Below, piece after piece: positions 11,235 through 52,321 of a stretch of DNA of 64,000 nucleotides. The DNA comes from Alphaproteobacteria bacterium (lineage in GTDB: Bacteria; Pseudomonadota; Alphaproteobacteria; Rhizobiales; BM303): contig JAJRYE010000086.1 in NCBI GenBank assembly GCA_024275895.1, forward strand, positions 1 through 64,000, written 5' to 3'. Position numbers and translations under genes: made by a program. Under the pieces are notes generated by a model. That model did no database searches. It was not told the origin of the DNA and saw nothing but the letters and a program-made list of their open reading frames with translations. Position 1 is the stretch's first letter. The number at the start of each line of letters is the position of its first letter.

Positions 11235-12125
11235 TTAAAACGCATCCGAATCGGGTTTGGTTGTCAGACGGCGGCAAATTTCATCGAGCTGCTCGAGGGT
11301 TTTATAAGAAATCCGCATTTCCCCGCCCCTGCTGCCCTTGTGCCGGATATCGACTTTAAGCCCGAGAGCCGTAGTCAGGTCATTTTCCAGTGCAAGCGTA
11401 TCGGTATCCTTTTGCGCCCTGGGCGTCTTTTTGGTTTTTGCCTTCCCGGGTTCTTTCACCAACCGCTCGGTTTGGCGCACATTCAAACCTTCCTGAACAA
11501 CCCGCAAGGCATCGGTCTCGGCATCAGCTGAAGCCAGCAGCGCCCGGGCATGCCCGGCGCTGAGAAGACCATCGGTAACAAAATCCTTGATTTTCCCGGG
11601 CAGCTTGAGCAGACGCAACGTATTGGTCAGATGCGGCCGGCTTTTGCCGATCGCCCGCGAGAGCTGCTCCTGGGTATAGCCAAACTCGTCAATCAGACGA
11701 CGATAGCCATTGGCCTCCTCCATGGCGTTCAAATCGGTTCTTTGCACATTTTCTATGATGGCGATTTCAAGCGCTTCGGCATCAGAGACATCGCGGCGAA
11801 TAACGGGCACTTCATGCAACTGCGCGTGTTGCGCCGCCCGCCAGCGCCGCTCGCCGGCGATAATTTCAAAATTCTTGTCGGAACCGGGCGCGCGCCGCAC
11901 CACAATCGGCTGTAACAAACCCTTTTCCCGGATCGAGTCCGCCAGCTCCTCGATATCCTCGGGATTGAAATTCTTTCTGGGATTGAGGCTGTTGGGTACG
12001 ATAAATTCGATAGGCACGCTCCGCAAACCTCTGGCGCGCTCCACGCTCTCATCTTCAGCATAATCATCGCCAAGCAGCGCCGCAAGGCCGCGGCCCAGTC
12101 TGTCTTTTACATGTTCATTAGCCAT
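11235..12125 (-). CDS. parB: Chromosome-partitioning protein ParB
   Basis: 296 aa CTPase/DNA-binding protein that loads at parS and spreads. N-terminal RGLAALLGD; CTP-binding boxes NPRKNF and AGERRWRAAQ with the GERR element; HTH DNA-binding domain around the EQLSRAIGKSRPHLTN segment; and a C-terminal dimerisation domain after a Lys-rich linker. It lies 84 bp downstream of parA. Two matching parS sites are nearby at 13645-13660 and 15653-15668. Confidence 0.98.
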   Translation of the reverse strand: MANEHVKDRLGRGLAALLGDDYAEDESVERARGLRSVPIEFIVPNSLNPRKNFNPEDIEELADSIREKGLLQPIVVRRAPGSDKNFEIIAGERRWRAAQHAQLHEVPVIRRDVSDAEALEIAIIENVQRTDLNAMEEANGYRRLIDEFGYTQEQLSRAIGKSRPHLTNTLRLLKLPGKIKDFVTDGLLSAGHARALLASADAETDALRVVQEGLNVRQTERLVKEPGKAKTKKTPRAQKDTDTLALENDLTTALGLKVDIRHKGSRGGEMRISYKTLEQLDEICRRLTTKPDSDAF

Positions 12126-12209: not shown

Positions 12210-13055
12210 TCACGCCGCGCGCAGCGTTTTCTCCCGCTGGATAATTTCCGAGGCCAATTTGATATAGGCCTGTGAACCGGTACAGGTATGATCATAAAGC
12301 AGCGCCGGCTTACCGTATGACGGCGCCTCTGAAATTCTGACATTACGCGGTATAACCGTTTTATAAACCTTGTCCCCCAGATAGGCCCTGACATCATCTG
12401 CCACCTGCCCCGAAAGATTATTTCGCTTATCAAACATTGTCAGGATGATGCCATGAATATCCAGATCGGGGTTCAGGGTATTGCGCACGCGCTCCACCGT
12501 GCGCAACAGCTGGCTCAAACCCTCCAGGGCAAAGAACTCGCATTGAAGCGGAACCAGAACCGAGCTCGCCGCCGCCAGTGCATTGATGGTGAGCAAATTG
12601 AGCGAAGGCGGGCAGTCAACCAGAATATATGAGTAGTTACGTTCATGAATCGAATTCGCCTTGCCTTCAACCAGCCGGGCTATGGCGTCTTTAAGGCGAT
12701 AAGTCCGCCGCGCCGCCTCCGAAAGCTCCAGCTCCGCGCCGAGCAAATCCAGAGTGGAGGGGGCAACATGCAAACGCGGTATGCCCGTCTCGACAATTGC
12801 CTGCGACAGCGGCTTTCTGCCCATCATGACATCATAAGTTGAATGTTTGCGTTTTGATCTGTCAAGACCAAGCCCGGTACTGGCGTTCCCCTGCGGATCA
12901 AGATCAATGATCAGTACATTTTCTTCAACAGCGGCGAGCGCCGTCCCCAGATTGATCGCCGTTGTCGTCTTGCCAACACCGCCCTTTTGATTGGCCAGAG
13001 TCAGTATTCTGGGGGTTTTGGCCGTTTTGCGGCGAAGCTTTCCCAAATTAAACAT
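12210..13055 (-). CDS. parA: Chromosome-partitioning ATPase ParA
   Basis: 281 aa deviant-Walker ATPase that moves ParB-parS complexes. Walker A is KGGVGKTTT near residue 27, Walker A' is DLDPQGNAS and Walker B is VDCPPSL. ATG 13055 is chosen because GGAAAAG lies 6 nt upstream, although it overlaps the rsmG stop by 8 bp; in-frame starts at 13079 and 13088 are possible but weaker. The order parB-parA-rsmG-mnmG is the usual origin-proximal cluster. Confidence 0.97.
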   Translation of the reverse strand: MFNLGKLRRKTAKTPRILTLANQKGGVGKTTTAINLGTALAAVEENVLIIDLDPQGNASTGLGLDRSKRKHSTYDVMMGRKPLSQAIVETGIPRLHVAPSTLDLLGAELELSEAARRTYRLKDAIARLVEGKANSIHERNYSYILVDCPPSLNLLTINALAAASSVLVPLQCEFFALEGLSQLLRTVERVRNTLNPDLDIHGIILTMFDKRNNLSGQVADDVRAYLGDKVYKTVIPRNVRISEAPSYGKPALLYDHTCTGSQAYIKLASEIIQREKTLRAA

Positions 13056-13713
13056 GATGTTCTTTTCCGGATCTTGCATGGATATCACTCACGACCAGAA
13101 TTTTCCCGTTTGGATCCGTCCGGCTTGGGTGAATTTGAGCCGTAATATTCCAACATTTAGAGGCCCGGGTCAATTCTTCATCTACATATTGTCCCTTTAG
13201 AAACAAACAGCGGCTGTTTATCCCCAGAAAAGGCTGCACAAAACCCAGCAGCTTATCCAAAGGCGCCAGCGCTCTGGCGGTGAGAATATCCACTTTAATC
13301 TCACCGGGTCTGAAACTCTCTATCCTGCGGTTTAAAACCTCGACCCTGATATCGGTCACACGGGCCGCCTCACGTAAAAAGGCGCATTTTTTACCATTGC
13401 TTTCAATCAGCGTGAATCTGGCATCCGGCCACTCATGAAGCGCCATGGCCAGAATCAGACCAGGAAAACCGGCACCGGACCCGATATCAAGAAATGAAGT
13501 GGCCCCGGTCGGAATAAAATCCAGCAATTGCAACGAATCCGCGATATGACGTTGACGCAAGCGTTGTATCTCACCTGCACCGACAAGATTCATGTGACTG
13601 TTCCACTTAAAGAGCAATTCGATAAATCGCTCTAGTCTCGCCTCTGTTTCACGTGAAACATCGGGAATCGGGCAGGGCGCATTCCCGGAAGGATTAATTT
13701 TCATTTCTGACAT
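13048..13713 (-). CDS. rsmG: 16S rRNA m7G527 methyltransferase RsmG (GidB)
   Basis: 221 aa SAM-dependent methyltransferase. The SAM motif is [11 protein letters not shown], with the N-terminal WNSHMNLVG element typical of RsmG. Its 5' end includes codons for DVSRET, which overlie a perfect parS site, a frequent arrangement in bacteria. The start overlaps the mnmG end by 13 bp and the stop overlaps parA, so translation is probably coupled. Confidence 0.97.
13645..13660. promoter_or_regulatory. parS site 1 (within rsmG)
   Basis: TGTTTCACGTGAAACA, a perfect 16-bp palindrome identical to the bacterial chromosomal parS consensus. It lies inside the 5' part of rsmG, 1.5 kb from parB. It is the expected ParB loading site. 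Confidence 0.96.
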
Positions 13714-15652: not shown

Positions 15653-15668
15653 TGTTTCACGTGAAACA
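15653..15668. promoter_or_regulatory. parS site 2 (mnmG-mnmE spacer)
   Basis: A second perfect TGTTTCACGTGAAACA palindrome, immediately next to the mnmE stop codon (15669-15671). It is 2.0 kb from site 1 and about 5.3 kb from the presumed origin. A parS pair this close to the origin fits ParB-dependent origin segregation. Confidence 0.96.
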
Positions 15669-19847: not shown

Positions 19848-20909
19848 TTATAGTCTTATAAGCTCCAGAATCCGTTGGACATTTTCCGGCGGTGTTTCTG
19901 GAACCAGACCATGTCCCAGATTGAAAATAAACGGGCCTGAAGAAAGCGTGGCAAGAATATTGTGAACCGCCGCTTCCATTGTCTTTCCCCCCGCGACAAC
20001 AACCAGCGGATCCAGATTGCCCTGCACCGTGACCTTGTCCTGCAAATGATCCCGGGCCCAGCCACATTGCATGGATGTGTCAATTGACACCGCGTCCACG
20101 CCCGTAGCCTCGACATAGGAAATATAAAGCTCTCCGCTTCCTTTTGGAAAACCGATGATCGGCACATCCGGGTGAACCGCCTTTACCCCCTGGACAATAC
20201 GTTTCATAGGCAAAAGACACCATTTGTAAAACTCGTCCGGCGGCAGATTTCCGGCCCAGCTGTCAAAAACCTGCAAAACCTCTGCCCCGGCCTCGATTTG
20301 CCGCCGAAGATAAAGGATTGAAGCCTCAACCAACATATCAATCAGTTGTCCAAATGCCTCTTCATCCCTGTAGGCCCACAACCTGGCCTCTTTTTGATCC
20401 GGAGAGCCCCGTCCCCCCACCATATAACTCGCGACAGTCCACGGGGCGCCGCAAAACCCGATAAGCGCGGTTTCCCCAGGCAATTGCTCCGCAACTCTCT
20501 CCAGCGCCTCAAAAACCGGTTCAAGATGATTGAGAAAGCCGTTGGGATTTAATGTTTGCAGTCCTGATTTTTCCCGGATCGCATCCAGAACCGGCCCCTC
20601 ACCGGTTTTAAAAGCAACCTTCTGGCCCAGTGCATCGGGAATAACGAGAATATCGGAAAAAATGATGGCGGCATCAAAGTGATATCGTCTGATCGGCTGA
20701 AGGGTAACCTCTGCCGCCAGAACGGGCGAATAACAAAGATTAAGAAAGTCGCCGGCCTCCTTCCTTACTGCCATATACTCGGGAAGATAGCGCCCGGCCT
20801 GCCGCATCATCCATACAGGGGGAACTTCAAGAATCTCTCCCTTTAACGCTTGTAGGAACGGCTTGTTTTTCATGTTGGTTTTCACTTGTTTGTCTTCATA
20901 CAAAGTCAT
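19848..20909 (-). CDS. hemE: Uroporphyrinogen decarboxylase
   Basis: 353 aa. PVWMMRQAGRYLPEY near the N-terminus (substrate-binding Arg residues) and IIFSDILVIPDALG (the catalytic Asp loop) are intact, as is the FCGAPWTVASYM segment. It decarboxylates uroporphyrinogen III to coproporphyrinogen III for heme, the branch competing with siroheme synthesis encoded at 53-56 kb. ATG 20909 has an AAGAGA site; ATG 20873 is an alternative. It flanks the presumed origin, as in Caulobacter and Rickettsia. Confidence 0.97.
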   Translation of the reverse strand: MTLYEDKQVKTNMKNKPFLQALKGEILEVPPVWMMRQAGRYLPEYMAVRKEAGDFLNLCYSPVLAAEVTLQPIRRYHFDAAIIFSDILVIPDALGQKVAFKTGEGPVLDAIREKSGLQTLNPNGFLNHLEPVFEALERVAEQLPGETALIGFCGAPWTVASYMVGGRGSPDQKEARLWAYRDEEAFGQLIDMLVEASILYLRRQIEAGAEVLQVFDSWAGNLPPDEFYKWCLLPMKRIVQGVKAVHPDVPIIGFPKGSGELYISYVEATGVDAVSIDTSMQCGWARDHLQDKVTVQGNLDPLVVVAGGKTMEAAVHNILATLSSGPFIFNLGHGLVPETPPENVQRILELIRL

Positions 20910-21287
20910 TTAATGTCTCTTATATCTTTTTAGTATTGTTTTTTAAGGCGACCAAACCTGTGGATAAAAAACTATCCACATAAAATTCACAACTCATGTG
21001 ATCTCAATCTGTAAAACCGCTCATCCAATACCGCGCTGACCACGCTCAGATAACACACTATTTATCAAGCCGATAGAAATTTCATTTCCCAACTGCAATT
21101 GGCAAAAATTCTTGATGTGGATCAAAGCCTGAAATCCGATCTGAATTTATCCTCCTCACACTGTCTTTTTTAACAGGACTCTTTCTGTTAACTATCATGT
21201 TAACGAATCTTAACGAAAAGTTAACATCAGATTGTCCTTTGCGGTTATCAAGAATCTATCCACAGGAATCTCAACGGATTTTTCCTC
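20910..21287. other. Presumed chromosomal replication origin (oriC)
   Basis: 378 bp gene-free, AT-rich gap between divergent hemE and the DUF299 gene. DnaA boxes: a perfect TGTGGATAA at 20959-20967, and one-mismatch boxes CTATCCACA at 20972-20980 and 21256-21264 and TGTGGATCA at 21116-21124. Three GTTAAC palindromes and a TTAA-N7-TTAA CtrA-type site lie at 21187-21225. hemE and the RP001-type gene flank the origins described for Caulobacter and Rickettsia; I take the DUF299 gene here to be that homologue. Genes diverge on both sides for about 4-10 kb. Function as an origin is inferred. Confidence 0.8.
21187..21225. promoter_or_regulatory. CtrA-type site cluster inside the presumed origin
   Basis: GTTAAC occurs at 21187-21192, 21199-21204 and 21220-21225, with another TTAAC at 21210-21214. 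The pair at 21210-21224 has the TTAA-N7-TTAA spacing recognised by the cell-cycle regulator CtrA in Caulobacter, where CtrA silences the origin. The other spacings (8 and 6 nt) are off by one. ctrA itself is not in the window. Confidence 0.6.
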
Positions 21288-22103
21288 ATGAAAAAGTTTT
21301 TTCATCTCCATCTGATATCAGATGCTACCGGTGAAACACTCAATACGATAGCCAATTCCGTCACGGTTCAGTTTCCATCCGTTCAGCCAATCCAGCATCT
21401 TTACGCACTCGTTCGTACCGAGGATGATCTGGCCGGTGTCGTCCGTGAAATTGAATCGGCGCCGGGGATTGTTTTTTATACCATCGTGGATAAGGATATC
21501 CGCAATATCCTGATCACGGCCTGTGAGCGCATGAATATCCCGGCAATTGCTGTTCTCGATCATACATTTTCGGCCCTGAGAAGTTATCTCGGTGCCGAAT
21601 CAAAACCTAAAATCGGTGGCCAGCACAGAACAAATGAGGATTATTTCAACCGTATCGAGGCACTAACCTTTTCCATGTCCCATGATGACGGCCAAATGAT
21701 TTCAGATATTGATTCTGCCGATATTGTTCTGATCGGCGTCAGCCGCACCTCCAAAACCCCGACATCAATCTATCTTGCCAACCGCGGCTATAAAACGGCC
21801 AATATTCCCCTCGTCAATGACATCGCCCTGCCCGAACCCCTTTACAAGGCCTCCCGTCCTCTCATCGTTTGTCTGATCGCCAGCCCTGACTATATTGTTC
21901 AGATCCGAAAAAACCGCATGAAATCACTCAATGTCGCCAATGAAACTTCCTATATAGACAAGCAGGCCGTTATCCGAGAAATCAGAAATTCACGCGAAAT
22001 CGCCGCGCTGAATGACTGGCCGGTGGTGGATGTCACCCGCCGTTCCATTGAGGAATCAGCCGCTACGATTCTTAATATTTATCATGCCAGGTCTCAGGAC
22101 TGA
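21288..22103 (+). CDS. DUF299 bifunctional kinase/pyrophosphorylase (PEP synthase or PPDK regulator)
   Basis: 271 aa. N-terminal LHLISDATGETLNT is the family signature; a P-loop GVSRTSKTPTS lies near residue 155, followed by KTANIPLV. Members phosphorylate a Thr on pyruvate phosphate dikinase or PEP synthase using ADP and remove it by phosphorolysis, so they switch gluconeogenic flux. Which target applies is unknown, as neither enzyme is in the window. It is the first gene on the right arm next to the presumed origin and leads a run with maf, aroE, coaE and dnaQ. Confidence 0.95.
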   Translation: MKKFFHLHLISDATGETLNTIANSVTVQFPSVQPIQHLYALVRTEDDLAGVVREIESAPGIVFYTIVDKDIRNILITACERMNIPAIAVLDHTFSALRSYLGAESKPKIGGQHRTNEDYFNRIEALTFSMSHDDGQMISDIDSADIVLIGVSRTSKTPTSIYLANRGYKTANIPLVNDIALPEPLYKASRPLIVCLIASPDYIVQIRKNRMKSLNVANETSYIDKQAVIREIRNSREIAALNDWPVVDVTRRSIEESAATILNIYHARSQD

Positions 22104-41383: not shown

Positions 41384-42643
41384 ATGACAAAAAAAATGCC
41401 TGAAACGCCCCTGTTGGATCAGCTGGAAAGCGGTCCGTGGCCGAGTTTCGTAACCGGCCTGAAAAGGCTGGCCGATTCTGAGGAAAACGGCCCCTATATG
41501 AAAAGCCTGCTAGGGCAGCTTGAGCATTCTTATGAAACCCGCAAGGGCTACTGGAAAGGTGGCACCGCCGGCGTCATCGGTTATGGGGCAGGGGTCATTC
41601 CGCGCTTTTCCGAAGTTGCCGAGGAATATCCTGAATCATCTGAATTTCATACCATCCGCATCATGCCGCCTGCCGGTATGCATTATGACACGGGCACCCT
41701 TCGCAAGATGTGCGACATCTGGGAAGAATATGGCTCGGGGCTGATCGCTTTTCATGGCCAGTCCGGCGATATCATGTTTCAGGGCTGCACCACCGATAAC
41801 ATCCAGCCCGCCTTTGATGCCTTGAATGAGCTTGGCTTTGACATGGGCGGCGCCGGGGCCGGCGTGCGCACATCCATGAGCTGCGTTGGCGCGGCGCGCT
41901 GCGAGCAATCCTGTTTTGACGAGGCGCGCGCCATGCGCACCGTCGTCAACAATTCGCTTGATGATGTTCATCGCCCCTCGCTTCCCTACAAGATGAAGTA
42001 TAAATTCTCCGGTTGCGCCAATGATTGCGTAAACGCCACCCACCGCGCCGATTTTGCGGTAATCGGCACCTGGAAGGATGATATTCAGGTCGACGAGGAG
42101 GCCTGGAAAGAGGTTCTGGCCGAGCGTGGCCGCAAGGAAATCAATGATCAGGTCATCAATATGTGCCCCACACGGGCCCTGAGCCTGAATGATGACGACA
42201 CACTCGAGATTGACAACAAGAGCTGTGTCAAATGCATGCACTGCATCAATGTTCTGACCAAGGCGCTCTCGCCGGGCAAGGAGCGCGGCATCACCATTCT
42301 GGTCGGCGGCAAACGCTCGCTCAAGATCGGCGATCTCATGGGCACGGTCGTGGTGCCGTTCATGAAGCTGGACACGGATGAGGATTTTGAAAAACTCGCT
42401 GAACTGGCTGAAAACGTTCTTGAATTCTTCGCCGAAAACGCCCTTGAGCATGAGCGCACCGGCGAAATGATCGAGCGCATCGGCATTACCAATTTCCTTG
42501 ACGGTCTTGGTCTTGATGCCGATCCCAATATGATCAATCATCCGCGCACCAGCTCCTATGTCCGTCTTGATAACTGGGACGAGGAGGTCGAGAAATGGAA
42601 TGCGCGCAAAGCGACAAAAGCGGCCGTTGAGGCGGCCGAATAA
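41384..42643 (+). CDS. dsrA: Dissimilatory sulfite reductase alpha subunit
   Basis: 419 aa. Siroheme-[4Fe-4S] ligands appear as SCVGAARC (C-x5-C) and GCANDC (C-x3-C), then a ferredoxin domain with MCPTRALS and CVKCMHC. In sulfur oxidisers the alpha2beta2 enzyme runs in reverse, oxidising DsrC-bound sulfur to sulfite in the cytoplasm. First gene of the operon; dsrB follows after 45 bp. Confidence 0.98.
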   Translation: MTKKMPETPLLDQLESGPWPSFVTGLKRLADSEENGPYMKSLLGQLEHSYETRKGYWKGGTAGVIGYGAGVIPRFSEVAEEYPESSEFHTIRIMPPAGMHYDTGTLRKMCDIWEEYGSGLIAFHGQSGDIMFQGCTTDNIQPAFDALNELGFDMGGAGAGVRTSMSCVGAARCEQSCFDEARAMRTVVNNSLDDVHRPSLPYKMKYKFSGCANDCVNATHRADFAVIGTWKDDIQVDEEAWKEVLAERGRKEINDQVINMCPTRALSLNDDDTLEIDNKSCVKCMHCINVLTKALSPGKERGITILVGGKRSLKIGDLMGTVVVPFMKLDTDEDFEKLAELAENVLEFFAENALEHERTGEMIERIGITNFLDGLGLDADPNMINHPRTSSYVRLDNWDEEVEKWNARKATKAAVEAAE

Positions 42644-42688
42644 CGGCCCCCCAGTGTTTAAGGTTTCCTAACGAGGAGAGAAATTGAG

Positions 42689-43768
42689 ATGAATGCTCCG
42701 ACACCGCCCCGCATGCCTGACGAGACGGGCGTACCCAATCATATGGACTACATGCATCCGCTGCTGAAGGCCAATTACGGCAAATGGAAATATCACGACC
42801 GTCCGCGTCCTGGCGTCTTGCATCATGTCGCGCGTGATGGCGCCGAGGTCTGGACCATCAAGGCCGGCACCCAGCGCCAGATGGATGTGACCACCATCCG
42901 CATGCTTTGCGATATTGCCGATGAGCTTGCCGGTGGTCATGTGCGTTTTACCACCCGATCGAATGTCGAATTCATGGTGGATGCTGAAGACAAGGTTCAG
43001 CCGCTGCTTGATCGCCTTGCAGAGGAAGGCCTGCCCGTCGGCGGCACCGGCAATTCGATCTCAATGATCTCGCATACCCAGGGCTGGCTGCATTGCGATA
43101 TTCCCGGAACCGACGCTTCGGGCGTGGTCAAATCCCTGATGGATCATCTGCATGAAGACTTTATCAAAGAGGAAATGCCCAACCGGGTGAAGATCACCAC
43201 CTCATGCTGCCAGATCAACTGCGGCGGACAAGGTGATATCGCGATTAATATCCAGCACACGAAACCGCCGACGATCAATCATGATCTGGTGGCCAAGCAG
43301 TGCGAGCGTCCGGCGGTGATTGCCCGCTGTCCGGTGGCGGCGATCCGCCCCGCGCTGGTGAACGGCAAGCCCTCGCTGGAGATTGACGAGCGCAAATGCA
43401 TTTGCTGCGGCGCCTGTTTCCCGCCATGCCCGCCGATGCAAATCAATGATCCGGTGCACTCGAAACTGGCGATCTGGGTTGGCGGCAAGCATTCCTCGAC
43501 CCGCTCCAAACCCGCTTTCCACAAGCTGGTGGCGGCAGGTCTGCCCAATAACGCGCCGCGCTGGCCCGAGGTTGCCGAAGTCGTCAATAAAATTCTCGCC
43601 GCCTACAAGCAGGACGGACGCCCGTGGGAGCGCATGGGCGAGTGGATCGAGCGTATCGGCTGGCCGCGCTTCTTTGAAATGACCGATCTGCCCTTCACCA
43701 AGTATCATCTTGATGACTGGCGCGGCGGCCGGGCCTCACTCAATGCTTCGGCGCAGGTGCGGCTCTAG
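42689..43768 (+). CDS. dsrB: Dissimilatory sulfite reductase beta subunit
   Basis: 359 aa. N-terminal MDYMHPLLKANYGKWKYHD, siroheme-cluster motif SCCQINCGGQGDIAI, and a ferredoxin domain CICCGACFPPCPPMQI with CPVAAI upstream. Pairs with DsrA and carries the catalytic siroheme in known enzymes. A CGAGGAGAG ribosome site precedes ATG 42689. A 132-bp gap separates it from dsrE, the longest within the early operon. Confidence 0.98.
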   Translation: MNAPTPPRMPDETGVPNHMDYMHPLLKANYGKWKYHDRPRPGVLHHVARDGAEVWTIKAGTQRQMDVTTIRMLCDIADELAGGHVRFTTRSNVEFMVDAEDKVQPLLDRLAEEGLPVGGTGNSISMISHTQGWLHCDIPGTDASGVVKSLMDHLHEDFIKEEMPNRVKITTSCCQINCGGQGDIAINIQHTKPPTINHDLVAKQCERPAVIARCPVAAIRPALVNGKPSLEIDERKCICCGACFPPCPPMQINDPVHSKLAIWVGGKHSSTRSKPAFHKLVAAGLPNNAPRWPEVAEVVNKILAAYKQDGRPWERMGEWIERIGWPRFFEMTDLPFTKYHLDDWRGGRASLNASAQVRL

Positions 43769-43900
43769 CATAAACGGAAATAAGGGGGTTTTGGCGGTGT
43801 TGCCCATCTTGATATCCTGTTTGGAGGGATTGATATAAAGGGGCAGGGCCTGCCGAAATTCCTGAAGATACAAGGTCAAGCCAGGGGGAGTTATTGAGCC

Positions 43901-44260
43901 ATGAAGTATGGCATTTTGATAAATGAAGGCCCGTTCACGCATCAGGCATCGGACACGGCCTACCATTTCACCAAGGCGGCGATCGAAAAAGGCCACCGCG
44001 TCATGCGCGTCTTTTTCTATCATGACGGCGTTTACAACGCCAACGCACTTTCCGAGCCGCAATCGGATGACCGCAATATCGTCAAGCTGTGGGGTGATCT
44101 GGCCAAAGAACACAAGATCGATCTTGTGGTCTGTGTTGCCGCTGGACTTCGCCGCGGCATCAAGGATCAGGTGCTGGCTGAAGGTTTCCGCATATCGGGG
44201 CTTGGCCAGTTGACGGAAATTGGCATGGCGGCGGACCGCCTGATCACCTTTGGTGACTAG
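43901..44260 (+). CDS. dsrE: DsrE, sulfurtransferase subunit
   Basis: 119 aa DsrE/TusD protein. The sulfur-carrying Cys78 is present in LVVCVAAGLRRG, at the same position as in Allochromatium DsrE. DsrEFH is a hetero-hexamer that passes persulfide sulfur to DsrC. The ribosome site is CAGGGGGAG. Presence of dsrEFH points to the oxidative direction. Confidence 0.97.
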   Translation: MKYGILINEGPFTHQASDTAYHFTKAAIEKGHRVMRVFFYHDGVYNANALSEPQSDDRNIVKLWGDLAKEHKIDLVVCVAAGLRRGIKDQVLAEGFRISGLGQLTEIGMAADRLITFGD

Positions 44261-44285
44261 AAGCTGAAGTTGAGGGAAAGCTGCA

Positions 44286-44726
44286 ATGAGTGAAGAAATC
44301 CAGACCGAATACGAGACCGAAGGCGTTGAAAAAAAGTTTATGTTTTTGAACCGCAAGGCGCCTTACGGTACGATCTATGCGCTTGAGATGCTGGAAACCG
44401 TGTTGATTTCCGCCGCTTTTGATCAGGATGTCACGCTGGTGTTTATGGATGATGGCGTTTATCAGTTGAAAAAAGGCTGCGACACCAAGGCGGTGAATAT
44501 GAAAAATTTCTCGGCAACCTACAAGGCGCTGGGTGATTATGATATTTCCAGACTTTTTGTCGAAAAAGAGTCAATGGACGCGCGCGGTCTCACAATCGAT
44601 GATTTGGTTGAGGTCATCTTTGAAGATGAAGACGATGACTGGGCCGAAAAACCGGCTGTGCATGTCAAATCGCGCGATGAGATCGCCAGATTGATGGAAG
44701 AACAGGATGTCATTATTTCCGCCTAG
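44286..44726 (+). CDS. dsrF: DsrF, DsrEFH complex subunit
   Basis: 146 aa, TusC-like. Core YALEMLETVLISAAFDQDVTLVFMDDGVYQLKKG. One Cys (KKGCDTK near residue 65), not the transfer Cys of DsrE. A longer acidic C-terminus (EDEDDDW) distinguishes it. Structural partner in the sulfur relay; follows dsrE after 25 bp. Confidence 0.96.
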   Translation: MSEEIQTEYETEGVEKKFMFLNRKAPYGTIYALEMLETVLISAAFDQDVTLVFMDDGVYQLKKGCDTKAVNMKNFSATYKALGDYDISRLFVEKESMDARGLTIDDLVEVIFEDEDDDWAEKPAVHVKSRDEIARLMEEQDVIISA

Positions 44727-44763
44727 CGGAAAACCTTAAAGACAAGTTTCAAGGAAATTCAAT

Positions 44764-45060
44764 ATGTTGCATCTGGTAAACAAATCTCCCTTCGAGCGCG
44801 GCGCTTTTGAAAGCTGCCTCAATATGGCGCGCAAGGGTTCGGCGATTTTGCTGATCGAGGACGGCGTTTATGCCGCCTTGAAAAATACACCATTTGAAGA
44901 CAAGGTTTCAGCTGCGGTGAAGGATATCAGGATCTGCGTCCTGGGGCCTGATCTGGCTGCACGTGGAGTGGATCAGGTTATTGAAGGCGTTGAGGTCGTG
45001 GATTACGGTGGATTTGTCGATCTGACCGTTGATCATACACCGGTTCAGTCCTGGTTGTAA
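44764..45060 (+). CDS. dsrH: DsrH, DsrEFH complex subunit
   Basis: 98 aa, TusB-like. N-terminal MLHLVNKSPFERGAFESC with Cys18 near the conserved Cys20 position of DsrH, then ILLIEDGVYAAL. Completes the DsrEFH relay. Follows dsrF after 37 bp. Confidence 0.96.
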   Translation: MLHLVNKSPFERGAFESCLNMARKGSAILLIEDGVYAALKNTPFEDKVSAAVKDIRICVLGPDLAARGVDQVIEGVEVVDYGGFVDLTVDHTPVQSWL

Positions 45061-45108
45061 TTGTGGTAACACCAACAGTACAAATTCTCAGTAAGTCAGG
45101 AGGAAAAC

Positions 45109-45444
45109 ATGGCTGCTTATGAAGTGAACGGAAAATCCATCGAGCATGATGAAGAAGGGTATCTTGAGGATATCGGTGAGTGGTCGCTCGATTTGGCCAA
45201 GATCATTGCCAAGGAAGAAAACCTTGAAATGACCGATGAGCATTGGGATGTCATCAACTACCTGCGCGAATATTATGACGAATACCAGATTGCGCCGGCG
45301 GTTCGCGTTCTTGTGAAAGCGATCAAGAAGAAATTTGGTCCTGAAAAAGGCAACAACAAATATCTCTATGAGTTGTTTCCCTATGGACCGGCCAAGCAGG
45401 CTTGTAAAATTGCCGGCCTGCCTAAACCGACGGGTTGCGTCTAG
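45109..45444 (+). CDS. dsrC: DsrC sulfur carrier
   Basis: 111 aa. The mobile C-terminal arm ends ACKIAGLPKPTGCV with both essential cysteines, Cys99 and penultimate Cys110, eleven apart as in functional DsrC (not a TusE or RspA form). DsrC carries the sulfur atom as a persulfide or trisulfide between DsrEFH, DsrAB and DsrMKJOP. CAGGAGGAAAAC is an unusually strong ribosome site, in keeping with high expression. Confidence 0.98.
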   Translation: MAAYEVNGKSIEHDEEGYLEDIGEWSLDLAKIIAKEENLEMTDEHWDVINYLREYYDEYQIAPAVRVLVKAIKKKFGPEKGNNKYLYELFPYGPAKQACKIAGLPKPTGCV

Positions 45445-45463
45445 TCAATATAATGTTCGGCTG

Positions 45464-45480
45464 ACGGGCAAGCAGCCCGT
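45464..45480 (+). promoter_or_regulatory. Hairpin between dsrC and dsrM
   Basis: ACGGGC-AAGCA-GCCCGT, a six-base perfect stem 20 bp after the dsrC stop, with no following T-run. It is placed where an mRNA-stabilising or processing hairpin would separate highly expressed dsrC from the membrane-complex genes. A short stem, so moderate confidence only. Confidence 0.4.
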
Positions 45481-45540
45481 TGGCGGCATTAGAGGGACCA
45501 GCCGTCCATTGGCGGCAGGTGACGGGTGAGGTGTGACGAT

Positions 45541-46323
45541 ATGGATGTTGTGATTACATATGCCTATGCGGGGATGTTTTATCTTGCCGGCCTGATTTTG
45601 CTGGCCGGTCTGGCGTGGAAAGTCAGCCGTTTTGCCTTTACGCCCGCCCCGTTGAAAATCCCCGTAACCCCGGCCCCGGTCACCTGGGTCGGCGTCCCGG
45701 TTCGTCTGGGTAAAGAGATCATCTTTTTCGCCTCCCTGTTTAAATCCAACAAATGGATCTGGCTGTTCGCGGCGCTGTTTCATGCCGCGCTGTTATTGGT
45801 CCTCATCCGCCATTTGCGCTACATTATCGAGCCGGTTCCCTACTGGCTGACCCTGGCGCAGCCCTTTGGCGTCTATGCCGGTTTTGCCATGCTGGCCGGT
45901 CTCGCCGGGTTATGGGCGCGCCGTTTTATTGTGGACAGGGTGCGTTATATCACCGGAGTCTCGGATCATCTCATGCTGTTGCTGCTGGTGCTGATCGGGT
46001 TTTCCGGCCTGATGATGAAATTTGTCTCCCGCACCGACGTTATCCAGGTCAAGGCCTTCTTCCAGGGGCTGATCTACTTCCAGATTCAACCTCTGCCCAC
46101 CGATATTCCCCTGCTCGTCCATCTTTCGCTGGTCATCACTTTGATGATTGTTTTTCCCTTCAGCAAGCTCCTGCACGCGCCGGGCATTGTCTTCATGCCC
46201 AGCCGCTATCAGGTCGATAATGCGCGTGAAAAACGTTACATCGTGCGCTGGGTGGCGAAGATGATGCAGCAGATGGATGAAAAAGATGACGCGGCAGCGC
46301 AAAAAGCCGCCGAAAAAGCGTGA
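45541..46323 (+). CDS. dsrM: DsrM, membrane cytochrome b subunit
   Basis: 260 aa with about five to six membrane helices (NarI-like). His residues in FHAALLLVLIRHLRYII and in LVHLSLVITLMIVFPFSKLLH would bind two heme b. It exchanges electrons with the quinone pool in DsrMKJOP. ATG 45541 is chosen over 45526 for its GGTGAGGTG site and because the protein then opens with the helix. Confidence 0.96.
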   Translation: MDVVITYAYAGMFYLAGLILLAGLAWKVSRFAFTPAPLKIPVTPAPVTWVGVPVRLGKEIIFFASLFKSNKWIWLFAALFHAALLLVLIRHLRYIIEPVPYWLTLAQPFGVYAGFAMLAGLAGLWARRFIVDRVRYITGVSDHLMLLLLVLIGFSGLMMKFVSRTDVIQVKAFFQGLIYFQIQPLPTDIPLLVHLSLVITLMIVFPFSKLLHAPGIVFMPSRYQVDNAREKRYIVRWVAKMMQQMDEKDDAAAQKAAEKA

Positions 46324-46335
46324 AGGAAGTAAGCC

Positions 46336-47832
46336 GTGGCCAAGCCGACATTTGATACGCCTGAATATCGCGAATTTCCCTCCCCGCCCGCCATTGAGGA
46401 AGGGGCGATGGAGCATCTCGAGACCTATATCGCCAAACCCGAGCACCAGGAAGCGCTTGGCTGGGCCGGCGAGCTGGAAGAGGGCTGGGAGCAAAGGGCG
46501 GTTGACAAGCTTGGCGATCTGCTGGGCAAGAACAAGGCGCTGCGGGTTTATCTCGACAGCTGCGTCAAATGCGGCGCTTGCACCGATAAATGCCATTATT
46601 TCATCGGTACCCGCGATCCCAAGAACATGCCGGTGGCGCGCCAGGATCTGCTGCGCTCGGTTTACCGGCGTTACTTTACCCTTTCAGGCAAACTCTTCCC
46701 CGATCTTGTCGGCGCGAAGGACATGAACAAGGAGGTTCTCGACGACTGGTACAAATATTATCACCAGTGCTCCGAATGCCGCCGCTGTTCGGTTTTTTGC
46801 CCCTACGGCATTGACACTGCCGAGATCACCATGGCCGCGCGCGATATCATGAACCATATCGGCATGGGGCAGAAATACACCAATGAAATTCTCGGCAAGG
46901 TCCACAAGATCGGCAACAATCTCGGCCTCCCGGGACCTGCCCTGATGGACACGATGGAAGGTCTGGAAGAAGACGTTTTTGACGATGACGGCGTCGCCGT
47001 CAAATTTCCGGTTGATATGCACGGCGCCGATGTCCTGCTGGTCACCCCGTCGGCTGATTTTTTTGCCGAGCCCCATGTTGACGGCCTTATCGGTTATGGC
47101 AAGGTTTTTCATCAGGCCGGCATCAGCTGGACGGTCAGCTCCTATGCCTCCGAAGCGGCCAATTTCGCGCTTTTTGCCGGCTCCACCGAGCAAATGCACA
47201 AAGTGGCGCGGCGCATCCGCAAGGTGGCGCAGGAGTTCGGCGTCAAGCGGATTATTTTCGGCGAGTGCGGCCATGCCTGGCGCGTCGCCTATTCCTTCCT
47301 CAACACCCTAGCCGGGCCGTTTGATTTTCTCGACCCGAAATATCCGGTGCCGCAGCATATTCTTGAGTTCACCCATGATCTGATAAACCGCGGTGCGCTC
47401 GCCCTTGACCCTTCGGCCAATGACGACAAGGTTGTGACCTTCCATGATTCGTGCAATGTCGCCCGCGCCTCGCGCATGGGGACCAAACCGGGCGGCCAGT
47501 TTGATATCCCGCGCGCCGTGATCCGGGCGGTGGTCAATAATTATGTCGATATGGACCCCGAGACCACCCATGAAAAGACCTTCTGTTGCGGCGGCGGCGG
47601 CGGTTTGCTTACCGATGATCTGCTGGAGTTGCGGGTTAAAGGCGCTTTGCCGCGCATGGAAGCGCTGCATGAAGTCGTGCAGAGCCACGGCGTAACCCAT
47701 ATGGCCGCCATCTGCGCCATCTGTAAAACCCAGTTCGCAAAAGTCCTGCCCTATTACGGAATGCAAATGGACATGATCACCTCGGTTCATCATCTGGTAG
47801 GTGACGCTATCATTCTGGGCGGCAAGGAATAA
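46336..47832 (+). CDS. dsrK: DsrK, HdrD-like iron-sulfur subunit
   Basis: 498 aa. Two [4Fe-4S] motifs SCVKCGACTDKCHYF and CSECRRCSVFCPYG near residues 75-155, then cysteine-rich CCG-type domain features CCGGGGG near residue 415 and CAICKTQFAKVLPYYG. The catalytic subunit of DsrMKJOP, which acts on DsrC. GTG start at 46336 with GAAGGAAG upstream, 12 bp after dsrM. Confidence 0.97.
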   Translation: MAKPTFDTPEYREFPSPPAIEEGAMEHLETYIAKPEHQEALGWAGELEEGWEQRAVDKLGDLLGKNKALRVYLDSCVKCGACTDKCHYFIGTRDPKNMPVARQDLLRSVYRRYFTLSGKLFPDLVGAKDMNKEVLDDWYKYYHQCSECRRCSVFCPYGIDTAEITMAARDIMNHIGMGQKYTNEILGKVHKIGNNLGLPGPALMDTMEGLEEDVFDDDGVAVKFPVDMHGADVLLVTPSADFFAEPHVDGLIGYGKVFHQAGISWTVSSYASEAANFALFAGSTEQMHKVARRIRKVAQEFGVKRIIFGECGHAWRVAYSFLNTLAGPFDFLDPKYPVPQHILEFTHDLINRGALALDPSANDDKVVTFHDSCNVARASRMGTKPGGQFDIPRAVIRAVVNNYVDMDPETTHEKTFCCGGGGGLLTDDLLELRVKGALPRMEALHEVVQSHGVTHMAAICAICKTQFAKVLPYYGMQMDMITSVHHLVGDAIILGGKE

Positions 47833-47885
47833 ACCGGCCCCGGGGCCGGAGATGAATAGAGATACGCAAGGAAAGGATCGCAAGC

Positions 47886-49820
47886 ATGAGCATAACGGAA
47901 ACAGGTGGTCTGAATTACCATCGCTACGACAATAGCGATATCGCTTATGACGATTTTCAGGACAAGATATTTCAGGCCAGCTGGTCGCATAAATGCCCGA
48001 CCTATGTGCAAAAAACCCCGCCTTGTTCCGGAAGCTGCCCTTCGGGTCACGATATCCGGGGCTGGCTGGCGATTGCCCGCGGCATGGACAAGCCTCCGGT
48101 GGAAGGCATGGCCTGGCAGGAATACGCCTTTAACCGCATGGTTGAGGCCAATCCTTTTCCTGCGGCCATGGGCCGGGTATGCCCGGCGCCGTGCGAGACC
48201 GGCTGCAACCGCAATGATGTGGAGGATTTTGTCGGCATTAACTCGCTGGAGCATTATATCGGCGACTGGGCGATCCGGAACAATCTCAAGCTTCCCGAGG
48301 CCGGCGCGGCTACGGGCAAGAAAGTCGCGGTTATCGGCGGTGGCCCGGCCGGGCTTTCCGCCGCCTATTTCCTGCGTCTTGAAGGCCATGATGTGACGCT
48401 TTTTGAGGCCAATGAAAAGCTTGGCGGCATGATGCGCTACGGCATTCCCGAATACCGCGTACCGCGTGATATGCTGGACGCTGAAATCGGCCGGATCCTC
48501 GACATGGGCGTTGAAGTGCGCACCGGCGTCAAGGTTGGCAAGGATGTCCCGGTCGAGGCGCTTGACAAGGACTTTGATGCTGTTTTTTGGGGGCTTGGGG
48601 CGCAAAAGGGCCGCTCGCTTCCTGTCAAGGGCTGGGATGATACGCCCAACTGCGTCGATGCGGTCTCGTTCCTGAAGGCTTTCAATGAGGGCCGTCTGAA
48701 ACATGTAAAAGGCCCCGTCATCTGCATCGGCGGCGGCGATACCTCCATCGATGTGTGCTGCGTGGCGCGGCGGCTGGGCACGGCTGAAGGCGCAGTTCCC
48801 GTTGAGGCGGTGCTGGGCGGCGCGGCGGCGCAGCAGGATGTGGATTACGCCGATAAAACCAATGTTGATGTCACGCTCACCTCGCTGTTCCCGGTTGACA
48901 ACATGTTTGCCACCGACCGTGAGGTCCGTGATGCGCTGAATGAAGGCGTTGTTATTAATGGCGGCGTCATGCCGCTGGAGCTGATCCGGGATGCAAGCGG
49001 CCGCGCAACAGCCCTGAAAATGTGCGAATGCGATATGGACGGCATGACGCCGATTGCAAAGGAAGGCACCGAATTTATTCTTGAAGGTGAGCTTTTCGTC
49101 GTCGCCATCGGCCAGTTCGGCGATATGGACGGTCTTGGCGATCTGGGCAATGAACACGCTTTTATCGATGCCGACAAGGTTTATCAGATCAAGGGCCACC
49201 CGGGTCATTTTGCTGGCGGTGATGTGCTGCGCCCGCACCTGCTCACCACCGCAATCGGCCATGGCTGCATCGCCTCTGATTCCATCACCGACTATCTTAA
49301 CGGTGAAGAGCCGGACAAGCGCCCCAAGGTTGATGTTCATAATTTCGACCTTCTTGAAGAGCTCCAGCAGCGCCATCATTCACCGGCAGAATACAATCAC
49401 CAGCCAACACGCGGCACATTCACCGCCAATTTCGCCGTTCATAACTATGAGGACCGCAGCCAGAATGAAATCATCAAATCGAAAGATTTGTTCCTTGGTC
49501 ATTTCACGGCGGAGCCGCGCAATCTGCGCGAGGAAATTCATATTTCCGCCGACGAGGTCCTCGGCGATTTCAAACCCCGCCTTAAAGCCCTTTCCGAAGA
49601 ACAGGCGGTCAGGGAAGGCGGGCGCTGTATGAGCTGCGGCCTGTGCTTTGAATGCGACAACTGCGTTATCTACTGTCCGCAGGACGCTGTTCAACGCGTC
49701 AAAAAAGCCGACCGGACAGTGGGGCGCTATGTCTATACAGACTACACACGCTGCATTGGCTGCCATATCTGCGCCGATGTCTGCCCGACGGGCTATATCG
49801 AAATGGGTCTTGGCGAATAA
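47886..49820 (+). CDS. dsrL: DsrL, NAD(P)-linked flavin oxidoreductase
   Basis: 644 aa. N-terminal Cys clusters PPCSGSCPSGHD and CPAPCETGCNR, FAD fold VIGGGPAGLSAAY, NAD(P) fold CIGGGDTSIDV, and a C-terminal ferredoxin domain CMSCGLCFECDNC and CIGCHICADVCP. In sulfur oxidisers DsrL accepts electrons from DsrAB-driven oxidation and reduces NAD+. Its presence supports oxidative use of the locus. Long minus-strand frames over this gene are shadows. Confidence 0.97.
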   Translation: MSITETGGLNYHRYDNSDIAYDDFQDKIFQASWSHKCPTYVQKTPPCSGSCPSGHDIRGWLAIARGMDKPPVEGMAWQEYAFNRMVEANPFPAAMGRVCPAPCETGCNRNDVEDFVGINSLEHYIGDWAIRNNLKLPEAGAATGKKVAVIGGGPAGLSAAYFLRLEGHDVTLFEANEKLGGMMRYGIPEYRVPRDMLDAEIGRILDMGVEVRTGVKVGKDVPVEALDKDFDAVFWGLGAQKGRSLPVKGWDDTPNCVDAVSFLKAFNEGRLKHVKGPVICIGGGDTSIDVCCVARRLGTAEGAVPVEAVLGGAAAQQDVDYADKTNVDVTLTSLFPVDNMFATDREVRDALNEGVVINGGVMPLELIRDASGRATALKMCECDMDGMTPIAKEGTEFILEGELFVVAIGQFGDMDGLGDLGNEHAFIDADKVYQIKGHPGHFAGGDVLRPHLLTTAIGHGCIASDSITDYLNGEEPDKRPKVDVHNFDLLEELQQRHHSPAEYNHQPTRGTFTANFAVHNYEDRSQNEIIKSKDLFLGHFTAEPRNLREEIHISADEVLGDFKPRLKALSEEQAVREGGRCMSCGLCFECDNCVIYCPQDAVQRVKKADRTVGRYVYTDYTRCIGCHICADVCPTGYIEMGLGE

Positions 49821-49838
49821 CAGTGTAAGGATACTGTC

Positions 49839-50330
49839 ATGACGGATCTTCGTCAGACTAAAACATACGCGGTTCTGACCGCCGCCCTTTTCATGATGAG
49901 CCTGCTCTTTATGGCCGGTGCGGCAGGCGCGGGCGAGGAACGCGTTCCGTTGCCGCATCCTGCCATGTCGGAAAAAGCGCAAAAAGCTGAAAACTGTGTT
50001 GCCCCCGTGTCCGAAATGCGGCGCTATCACATGCAATATCTCAAGCACCAGCGTGTCGAGACCCTGCGCAAGGGGGTGCGCGGCAATCCCTACAGCCTGA
50101 AGAGCTGCGTCAATTGCCATGCGGTAAAAGACAAGGCGGCGGGCGGCGCGCGCACCGCGGATGCGTTTTGCAGCTCCTGCCACAAATACGCAGCCGTAAC
50201 CATTGACTGTTTCAGCTGTCATACCAACAAGGCAGCGGACAGGAAAAAGACCTCCGCCGTCCAATCTCCGGTTAGTCAGCTGGCCGCGCATCTGGAAAAA
50301 GCGGCGAAAGACAGGAGTCTTTTGAAATGA
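49839..50330 (+). CDS. dsrJ: DsrJ, periplasmic triheme cytochrome c
   Basis: 163 aa with an N-terminal helix (residues ~10-30) and three CxxCH motifs: CVNCH 90-94, CSSCH 111-115, CFSCH 124-128. Cys53 in ENCVAP is positioned as the unusual Cys heme ligand known in DsrJ. Periplasmic part of DsrMKJOP. Its stop overlaps the dsrO start (ATGA). Confidence 0.96.
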   Translation: MTDLRQTKTYAVLTAALFMMSLLFMAGAAGAGEERVPLPHPAMSEKAQKAENCVAPVSEMRRYHMQYLKHQRVETLRKGVRGNPYSLKSCVNCHAVKDKAAGGARTADAFCSSCHKYAAVTIDCFSCHTNKAADRKKTSAVQSPVSQLAAHLEKAAKDRSLLK

Positions 50331-51070
50331 GCACATCCAACAAGCAAACCGCCGATCTGGCCCGCCGCCGCTTCTTGTCCGGCGCGGTTGCTCTGGGCTC
50401 TGTTTCCATCGCTTCGGGTTTTACCCTCTACACCGCCAGCGCCCGCCCCAAGGGTGAGCCGGCCAGTTCCAAAATCCGCTGGGGATTACTGATCGATACC
50501 GGCAAATGCGAAGATTGCAATATCTGCGTCGAAGCCTGCAAAACTGAAAATGGCTGGGAGGGCCATCGCGGTAACCTGACCGATCCGCAATGGATCCGCA
50601 AAGTCGGGCTGACGGACAAGCGAACCGGCAAAAAGCAGTCCCTGCCGGTTATGTGTCTGCATTGCGAATACCCGCCTTGCGTGGATGTCTGCCCTGTCGG
50701 CGCCTCCATGAAACGCGCCGACGGCATTGTGCTGGTTGATCGTCATCTTTGCATCGGCTGCCGCTATTGCATGATGGCCTGCCCCTATGGCGCACGGTCA
50801 TTCGTGCATGAAAAAGTCACGAACCAGAAACCCTATATGCCGCGCGGCCAGGGAACAGTCGAATCCTGTACCCTTTGTGCCCACCGCATCGATGACGGCC
50901 GCATCCCCGCCTGTGTCGAGGCCTGCACAAAGTCAGGCCGTGAAGCGATGCTGTTTGGCGATCTTAACGATCCGCAAAGCGCAATCTCAAAGCGCATTGT
51001 CCAGGTTTCAACGACCAAGCTCCGGGCGGATCTTGGTTTGGAGCCGAATGTCCGTTACGTGAATTTTTAA
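50327..51070 (+). CDS. dsrO: DsrO, periplasmic ferredoxin-like subunit
   Basis: 247 aa. Tat signal with ARRRFLSGAVALGS, then four [4Fe-4S] motifs: CEDCNICVEAC, CLHCEYPPCVDVCP, CIGCRYCMMACPYG and CTLCAHRI...CVEAC. Electron-transfer subunit between DsrJ and membrane DsrP. Overlaps dsrJ by 4 bp. Confidence 0.97.
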   Translation: MSTSNKQTADLARRRFLSGAVALGSVSIASGFTLYTASARPKGEPASSKIRWGLLIDTGKCEDCNICVEACKTENGWEGHRGNLTDPQWIRKVGLTDKRTGKKQSLPVMCLHCEYPPCVDVCPVGASMKRADGIVLVDRHLCIGCRYCMMACPYGARSFVHEKVTNQKPYMPRGQGTVESCTLCAHRIDDGRIPACVEACTKSGREAMLFGDLNDPQSAISKRIVQVSTTKLRADLGLEPNVRYVNF

Positions 51071-51085
51071 AGAAGGATATCAATT

Positions 51086-52321
51086 ATGGGTCTCAGGGAT
51101 AATTACCACAGGCTGGTAGATCATGGTCCGTTCTTCTTTGCTCTCATGCTTGCCCATGCGCTGGTTATCCTTCTCGGGCTGACGGCGGCGTATTATATGG
51201 AACATAACGGTCATTACGTCACCGGCATGAACAATCAGGTGGTCTGGGGCATGCCGCATGTCTTTGCCGTTTTCCTCATTGTCGCCGCCTCGGGGGCGCT
51301 CAACGTGGCCTCGATATCTTCGGTTTTCAACCGTCTGGCCTATAAGCGCTTTGCGCGCCTCTCCGCCATTCTGGCCGTATCGCTTCTTGCCGGCGGCCTG
51401 TTTGTTCTGCTGCTTGACCTGGGGAGGGTTGATCGTCTGATCATCGCCATGACCTCGTACAACTTCAAGTCCATCTTCGCCTGGAACATCTATCTCTACA
51501 CCGGCTTCTTCGCCATCGTCGGGATTTATTTGTGGACGATGATGGAAAAGCGCATGAACCGCTACAGCAAATATGCCGGCTATGCCGCCTTTGTCTGGCG
51601 TTTGATCCTCACCACCGGCACGGGCTCGATCTTTGGTTTTCTCGCCGCCCGCGAGGCCTATGACACCGCTCTTCTTGCGCCTCTGTTTATTGCTTCCTCC
51701 TTCGTTTACGGCCTCGCTTTCACCGTGTTGGTCTTGCTGACCATGTGCTGGACTTTGGGAATCACCCTGATGGACAAGGAGTTCGTCCAGAAAGTCCGTG
51801 GCCTGCTGATCATTTTTACCGTCACAGTGCTCTATTTTACCACCGTGCAGCATCTCACCAATATCTATGCCACCCAGCATCACGGTGTGGAGAGCTATCT
51901 TCTGCTCACCGGCGGCGTTATCCCGGCTGTTTTCTGGGGCGTCCAGATCGTTATTGGATCGATTTTGCCGTTGCTGATTCTGGCCCATCCCACTCTTGGC
52001 CTGACACGCCATGGCCTCTCCCTGGCGTCTGTCCTGCTGCTGATCGGCGGTCTGGGCCAGATGTATGTGATCATTATCGGCGGCCAGTCCTATCCCCTCA
52101 ACATCTTCCCCGGCATGGAAGCTACAAGCTCATGGATTGACGGCCGCTTTGCCCATTATGTGCCAAGCCTGGCTGAAATCGTGCTGGGGGTGAGCGGAAT
52201 TTCCATTGCCATGCTGGCGACCGCCATGGCGCTCAAGGTCTTGCGTTTCCTGCCCAATCCGATAGAAGAAAACAATACATCAAAAAACAAGCCAGAGGCC
52301 AAGACTGCCGGGGCGGCTTGA
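51086..52321 (+). CDS. dsrP: DsrP, NrfD-like quinone-interacting membrane subunit
   Basis: 411 aa with about ten membrane helices, including FFALMLAHALVILLGLTAAYY, LLAGGLFVLLLDLGR and VILVLLTMCWTLG-type stretches, matching the NrfD/PsrC family. Completes DsrMKJOP. The short polar tail (PEAKTAGAA) is cytoplasmic. dsrN follows after 16 bp. Confidence 0.96.
   Translation: MGLRDNYHRLVDHGPFFFALMLAHALVILLGLTAAYYMEHNGHYVTGMNNQVVWGMPHVFAVFLIVAASGALNVASISSVFNRLAYKRFARLSAILAVSLLAGGLFVLLLDLGRVDRLIIAMTSYNFKSIFAWNIYLYTGFFAIVGIYLWTMMEKRMNRYSKYAGYAAFVWRLILTTGTGSIFGFLAAREAYDTALLAPLFIASSFVYGLAFTVLVLLTMCWTLGITLMDKEFVQKVRGLLIIFTVTVLYFTTVQHLTNIYATQHHGVESYLLLTGGVIPAVFWGVQIVIGSILPLLILAHPTLGLTRHGLSLASVLLLIGGLGQMYVIIIGGQSYPLNIFPGMEATSSWIDGRFAHYVPSLAEIVLGVSGISIAMLATAMALKVLRFLPNPIEENNTSKNKPEAKTAGAA

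Follow-up and report, generated by a model that had tools for sequence, protein, structure and literature searches.

Textbook knowledge of how CtrA controls a replication origin rests on Caulobacter. The origin of Caulobacter crescentus, Cori, lies between hemE and a gene of the COG1806/DUF299 family (PMC1914354), carries DnaA boxes, among them the high-affinity G-box TGATCCACA (PMC4285127), as well as TTAA-N7-TTAA sites, and has parABS nearby. According to a 2015 review, CtrA-type origin sites were not seen outside Caulobacter, except possibly in Rickettsia, and in open-access papers CtrA sites had, as far as we could find, not been described before for Hyphomicrobiales origins.

The locus studied here shares all these features of Cori. 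It lies in a 64,000-nucleotide stretch of DNA (the window) from an uncultured, sulfur-metabolising, deep-branching Hyphomicrobiales bacterium, whose assembly (G000) is a MAG of 2.47 Mb in 138 contigs, 86.7% complete. The named relatives of its PPRP (DUF299) protein are Hyphomicrobiales, the best named match being that of MAG SZUA-8 (61%). An earlier note on this DNA had proposed that the gap between hemE and the DUF299 gene is a replication origin with DnaA boxes and a cluster of CtrA-type sites. The note had placed the gap correctly (Table 1), and its statement that the neighbours are those of the Caulobacter and Rickettsia origins is borne out by the gene order, which equals that at Cori and at the Rickettsia flanks (PMC1914354). 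The two genes are divergent around the gap, and the gap falls within the size of about 300-700 bp of the hemE/COG1806 origin type.

Table 1. Coordinates of the features discussed in the text (positions in the window).
Feature	Position	Strand	Remarks
parB	11235..12125	-	
parA	12210..13088	-	
parS TGTTTCACGTGAAACA	13645..13660	.	perfect match
parS TGTTTCACGTGAAACA	15653..15668	.	perfect match
hemE, uroporphyrinogen decarboxylase	19848..20909	-	PF01208, 4e-120; start at 20909
hemE/PPRP (DUF299) intergenic gap	20910..21287	.	378 bp, 36% GC; predicted chromosomal oriC
candidate unwinding element	20910..20949	.	40-bp stretch of highest AT content in the gap (78%); role predicted
DnaA box TTATCCACA	20959..20967	-	exact
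DnaA box CTATCCACA	20972..20980	+	convergent with the preceding box, 4 bp between
DnaA box TGATCCACA	21116..21124	-	identical to the Caulobacter G-box
TTAAC half-site array	21170..21224	.	five half-sites; predicted CtrA-binding region
TTAACGAAAAGTTAA	21210..21224	+	exact CtrA consensus TTAA-N7-TTAA; sole such site in the window
DnaA box CTATCCACA	21256..21264	+	about 30 bp ahead of PPRP
PPRP/DUF299 (COG1806) kinase-pyrophosphorylase	21288..22103	+	PF03618, 5e-89; start at 21288
dsrA	41384-42643		
dsrB	42689-43768		
dsrK	46336-47832		
weakly dsrP-like gene	51086-52321		below NCBI's cut-off

The four DnaA boxes of the gap have at most one mismatch each and were correctly listed before, one as perfect and three with a single mismatch. 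Their expected number is 0.14, and none of 5000 dinucleotide shuffles of the gap contained four. The identity of the third box to the Caulobacter G-box (PMC4285127) makes it more than a near miss. The AT-rich stretch at the hemE end of the gap lies beside the convergent pair of boxes. Across the corresponding gaps of the order the commonest position of a DnaA box is 25-50 bp before PPRP.

Several other lines of evidence converge on the same place. Both parS sites are 5-7 kb from the gap, and together with parAB they lie, as had been claimed, within 10 kb. Genes diverge from the gap: of the coding length, the minus strand has 92% over 11-21 kb and the plus strand 70% over 21-35 kb. Within the order, 148 distinct gaps show the hemE/PPRP gene order, as do 100 of 108 loci from a sample of the class. 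Ten genomes assembled into one or a few contigs carry the exact parS motif, and in each of them all copies are 3.7-15.5 kb from PPRP, with none elsewhere. As the source genome is in 138 contigs, the skew switch was read from a complete Hyphomicrobiales genome, G044, whose hemE/PPRP gap (locus L170) carries the same kinds of sites. There the GC skew changes from -0.108 to +0.050 at PPRP; the 10 kb values are negative up to 1,492,000 and then positive (PPRP starts at 1,492,197), which places the sign change less than 2 kb from the gap. Because of the gene order, the DnaA boxes, parS, the diverging genes and the skew switch in the complete relative, the gap is almost certainly a chromosomal replication origin of the Caulobacter Cori type.

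The second characteristic of the gap is an array of TTAAC half-sites between the third and fourth DnaA boxes, without clear overlap with a box. Its TTAA half-sites are at 21170, 21188, 21200, 21210 and 21221, the last four being spaced 12, 10 and 11 bp. Eight TTAAC/GTTAA strings were counted in the gap against 1.04 expected, a number not attained in any of 5000 dinucleotide shuffles (each GTTAAC palindrome was scored as two strings, thus the eight strings represent five TTAA half-sites). GTTAAC occurs three times, at 21187, 21199 and 21220, against 0.08 expected, which was matched in one of 5000 shuffles; over the whole window it is not enriched (8 vs. 6.2 expected). The single TTAA-N7-TTAA site (0.03 expected) was matched in 141 of 5000 shuffles, hence it is weak alone and was rejected as proof. 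It must be noted that the third GTTAAC is the right half of the N7 site, therefore these two features are not independent. Among the intergenic stretches in 70 kb of the contig, none besides the gap approached its number of DnaA boxes or of half-sites. The palindromes and the N7 site are all where the earlier note had put them. The CtrA-type cluster it described stands as a non-random cluster, and is backed by the excess of one particular spacing in the order as a whole (see below), but the N7 site contributes little by itself and overlaps the third palindrome. No IHF site of full consensus is present in the gap; there are two one-mismatch matches, at 21063 and 21246, neither of which overlaps the array, and these are raw matches. 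Just past the window, the intergenic gap at 65987-66235 of the same contig (locus L040) has a second TTAA-N7-TTAA site and four TTAAC/GTTAA strings, which possibly represent a CtrA-type promoter.

The survey of the order gave a stronger result than the locus itself, and it is the part of interest. In the 148 origin gaps we found 66 TTAA-N7-TTAA sites, distributed over 56 gaps, against 1.6-2.2 expected. When all spacings from N0 to N24 were scanned in these gaps, most gave about 2 sites; the largest excesses after that of N7 were N17 (16), N6 (11), N3 (10) and N14 (10). The N6 and N17 excesses are what half-site arrays spaced 10 and 11 bp, such as the one described here, would yield. Outside the gaps, the same loci contained no TTAA-N7-TTAA in 439,552 bases, which are mostly coding. 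Six Microvirga species have two CtrA-type sites about 59 bp apart, and the half-sites of these two, together with the DnaA boxes, form conserved islands in an otherwise diverged gap. Of the 38 families represented by genomes, 14 had at least one N7 site. To judge from these sequences, CtrA-type sites are very probably under selection at origins of the order, and for a large part of it the motif excess disagrees with the statement of the 2015 review.

The presence of N7 sites follows phylogeny, since on the PPRP tree the trait requires 20 changes as compared to 31 with shuffled labels, and none of 500 shuffles was as low. Among the clades that lack an N7 site altogether are Rhizobiaceae with Martelella, Hyphomicrobiaceae, and the group of Parvibaculum/Rhodobiaceae, and there was none in the four Rhizobiaceae/Aurantimonadaceae gaps identified by name. 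In the rest of the class an N7 site was present in 8 of 71 gaps from ctrA-bearing genomes, and the genomes without ctrA showed no excess (1 of 27). With only 8 of 71 ctrA-bearing genomes outside the order having one, the idea that a CtrA site is a universal feature of alphaproteobacterial origins was rejected. We lean slightly towards the view that direct CtrA control of initiation is a widespread Hyphomicrobiales trait, which has been repeatedly gained or lost, is absent in Rhizobiaceae, and for which the array at 21170-21224 would be one of several independent layouts.

Some side observations were made in the survey. GANTC, the CcrM methylation site, is about 1.6-fold enriched in the 148 origin gaps (429 vs. 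~270). In Methylocystis and relatives (L078, L023, L173) the N7 sites TTAACACTCTGTTAA, TTAACGCTTTGTTAA and TTAACGCTTTATTAA resemble the Caulobacter dual IHF/CtrA sequence TAACGCTCTGTT (PMC4285127). Two public MAG contigs titled Lysobacterales and Hyphomonadaceae (L107, L134) carry a hemE/PPRP locus of Hyphomicrobiales type, and their PPRP branch among Hyphomicrobiales on the PPRP tree; these are probably mislabelled or mixed bins.

The search for cell cycle genes elsewhere in the genome, suggested by the earlier note, was successful for gcrA and a CcrM-like RAMA protein gene but not for ctrA. The 86.7% complete assembly yielded no ortholog of ctrA (best match 39-40%) with an approximate Caulobacter CtrA query, and the result was the same with ctrA of G014, a same-genus genome (70%). 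G014 ctrA has 85% identity. Its neighbours are, we presume, flhA, flhF, yajQ, fliI and cheR, and the G014 orthologs of flhA, yajQ, fliI and cheR were likewise not found in the source assembly, which does carry chpT and sciP. In the order ctrA is present in 186 of 199 genomes, and in 170 of 173 good ones. As the whole ctrA block is missing, chpT and sciP are present and the same-genus genome has ctrA, an assembly gap is the simplest and likely explanation. Loss of ctrA together with the flagellum in this lineage would be a less simple reading, and true loss was rejected as first choice on the same grounds. At the G014 origin about one half-site is left and there is no N7 site, so that the array is young or fast-changing; the next nearest origins (G026, G006, G036) have no N7 sites either.

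The earlier note had also seen in this locus an extension of CtrA control to one rDsr-bearing lineage. The sites are there, but the survey shows a common, patchy trait of Hyphomicrobiales, and the control itself is a prediction. A dissimilatory sulfite reductase cluster, of oxidative or reductive type, was confirmed in the window (41384-52321, 20-31 kb from the predicted origin).

Our proposed mechanism is inferred from Cori, where CtrA excludes DnaA (PMC4468827; PMC4285127). DnaA would assemble on the four boxes, with its likely core at the convergent pair next to the AT-rich stretch of the hemE side, and would open this stretch. The CckA-ChpT relay would supply phosphorylated CtrA, which would bind the helically phased array between the G-box and the PPRP-proximal box and, until removed, would prevent DnaA from assembling on the PPRP side or delay its assembly there. 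Hindrance of DnaA is suggested by the arrangement, with boxes at both ends, an AT-rich hemE end and the array between boxes three and four. We think it rather likely that this account holds as a whole, with binding, repression and timing deduced by analogy. That the array acts on initiation in the source organism may be stated a shade less firmly, its function in this lineage being only probable because the nearest relative lacks the array.

The GC skew of the window itself left some room for an origin elsewhere, with the gap as an ordinary intergenic region. At 22 kb the skew rises in a step from -0.18 to about 0, which agrees only in part with the check proposed earlier: the sign does not change cleanly, and the cumulative skew is lowest at the far end of the window. 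Set against the cluster of DnaA boxes, parS, the order and orientation of the genes, and the skew switch that G044 shows at this locus, this explanation is very improbable. The two remaining alternatives both keep the origin call. One is that the array serves as a promoter element through which CtrA regulates PPRP (or hemE), with no role in initiation: it lies about 63-118 bp ahead of the PPRP start codon, CtrA mostly works at promoters, and in Rhizobiaceae it regulates genes without touching the origin (PMC4433202). Against this, the N7 sites of the order are at no fixed distance from either gene, 44 to more than 400 bp before PPRP and many of them close to mid-gap. Moreover, only 2 of 156 other intergenic gaps of G044 (600 kb) have an N7 site, the number of gaps being approximate as genes were called simply by longest ORF, and Caulobacter uses this position to repress its origin. 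We consider this function unlikely.

Somewhat less likely still is that the half-sites are a relic, a chance AT-rich cluster or the target of another protein, in a lineage which no longer uses CtrA at its origin. The lack of ctrA in the assembly, the lack of the array in G014 and other nearest relatives and the repeated gain or loss of the N7 trait all fit this possibility. It is at odds with a half-site count above that of all shuffles, with the presence of chpT and sciP, which serve CtrA, and with the near-constant occurrence of ctrA in good genomes of the order; the missing neighbours flhA, yajQ, fliI and cheR are what an assembly gap would give. An origin at which bound CtrA hinders DnaA is the reading we prefer.

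The origin call is ordinary and right, and the CtrA-type cluster is real in the sequence. A doubtful generalisation about CtrA and the origins of the rhizobial order becomes directly testable in cultured Roseibium, Microvirga, Bosea and Chelatococcus, and sister lineages with and without sites offer a way to ask how a cell-cycle regulator gains or loses an origin. Rhizobiaceae, a clade without N7 origin sites, is where the model organisms of the order are.

It is useful to compare the locus with the origins described so far. Sinorhizobium meliloti and Brucella abortus belong to the same order and CtrA is essential in both. At the S. meliloti origin CtrA motifs are absent and CtrA does not bind (PMC4433202), in agreement with the Rhizobiaceae gaps of our survey, and B. 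abortus CtrA was reported not to bind the origin (PMC2877005). Rickettsia prowazekii and Wolbachia have, according to what PMC1914354 cites of Brassinga 2002, a hemE-side origin with CtrA-type sites; they differ in being a distant lineage with reduced genomes, and in Wolbachia hemE lies far from COG1806. In Hyphomonas neptunium, on the Caulobacter side of the class, a CtrA ChIP-seq peak adjoins the chromosomal origin (PMC7200025); there binding was shown, whereas the gap described here is known from sequence. The closest counterpart is Cori, with differences in the layout of the sites. Several Caulobacter CtrA sites overlap DnaA boxes and the array does not, the gap has no IHF site of full consensus, and in place of the five separate sites of Cori there is one exact N7 site within a phased array of half-sites.
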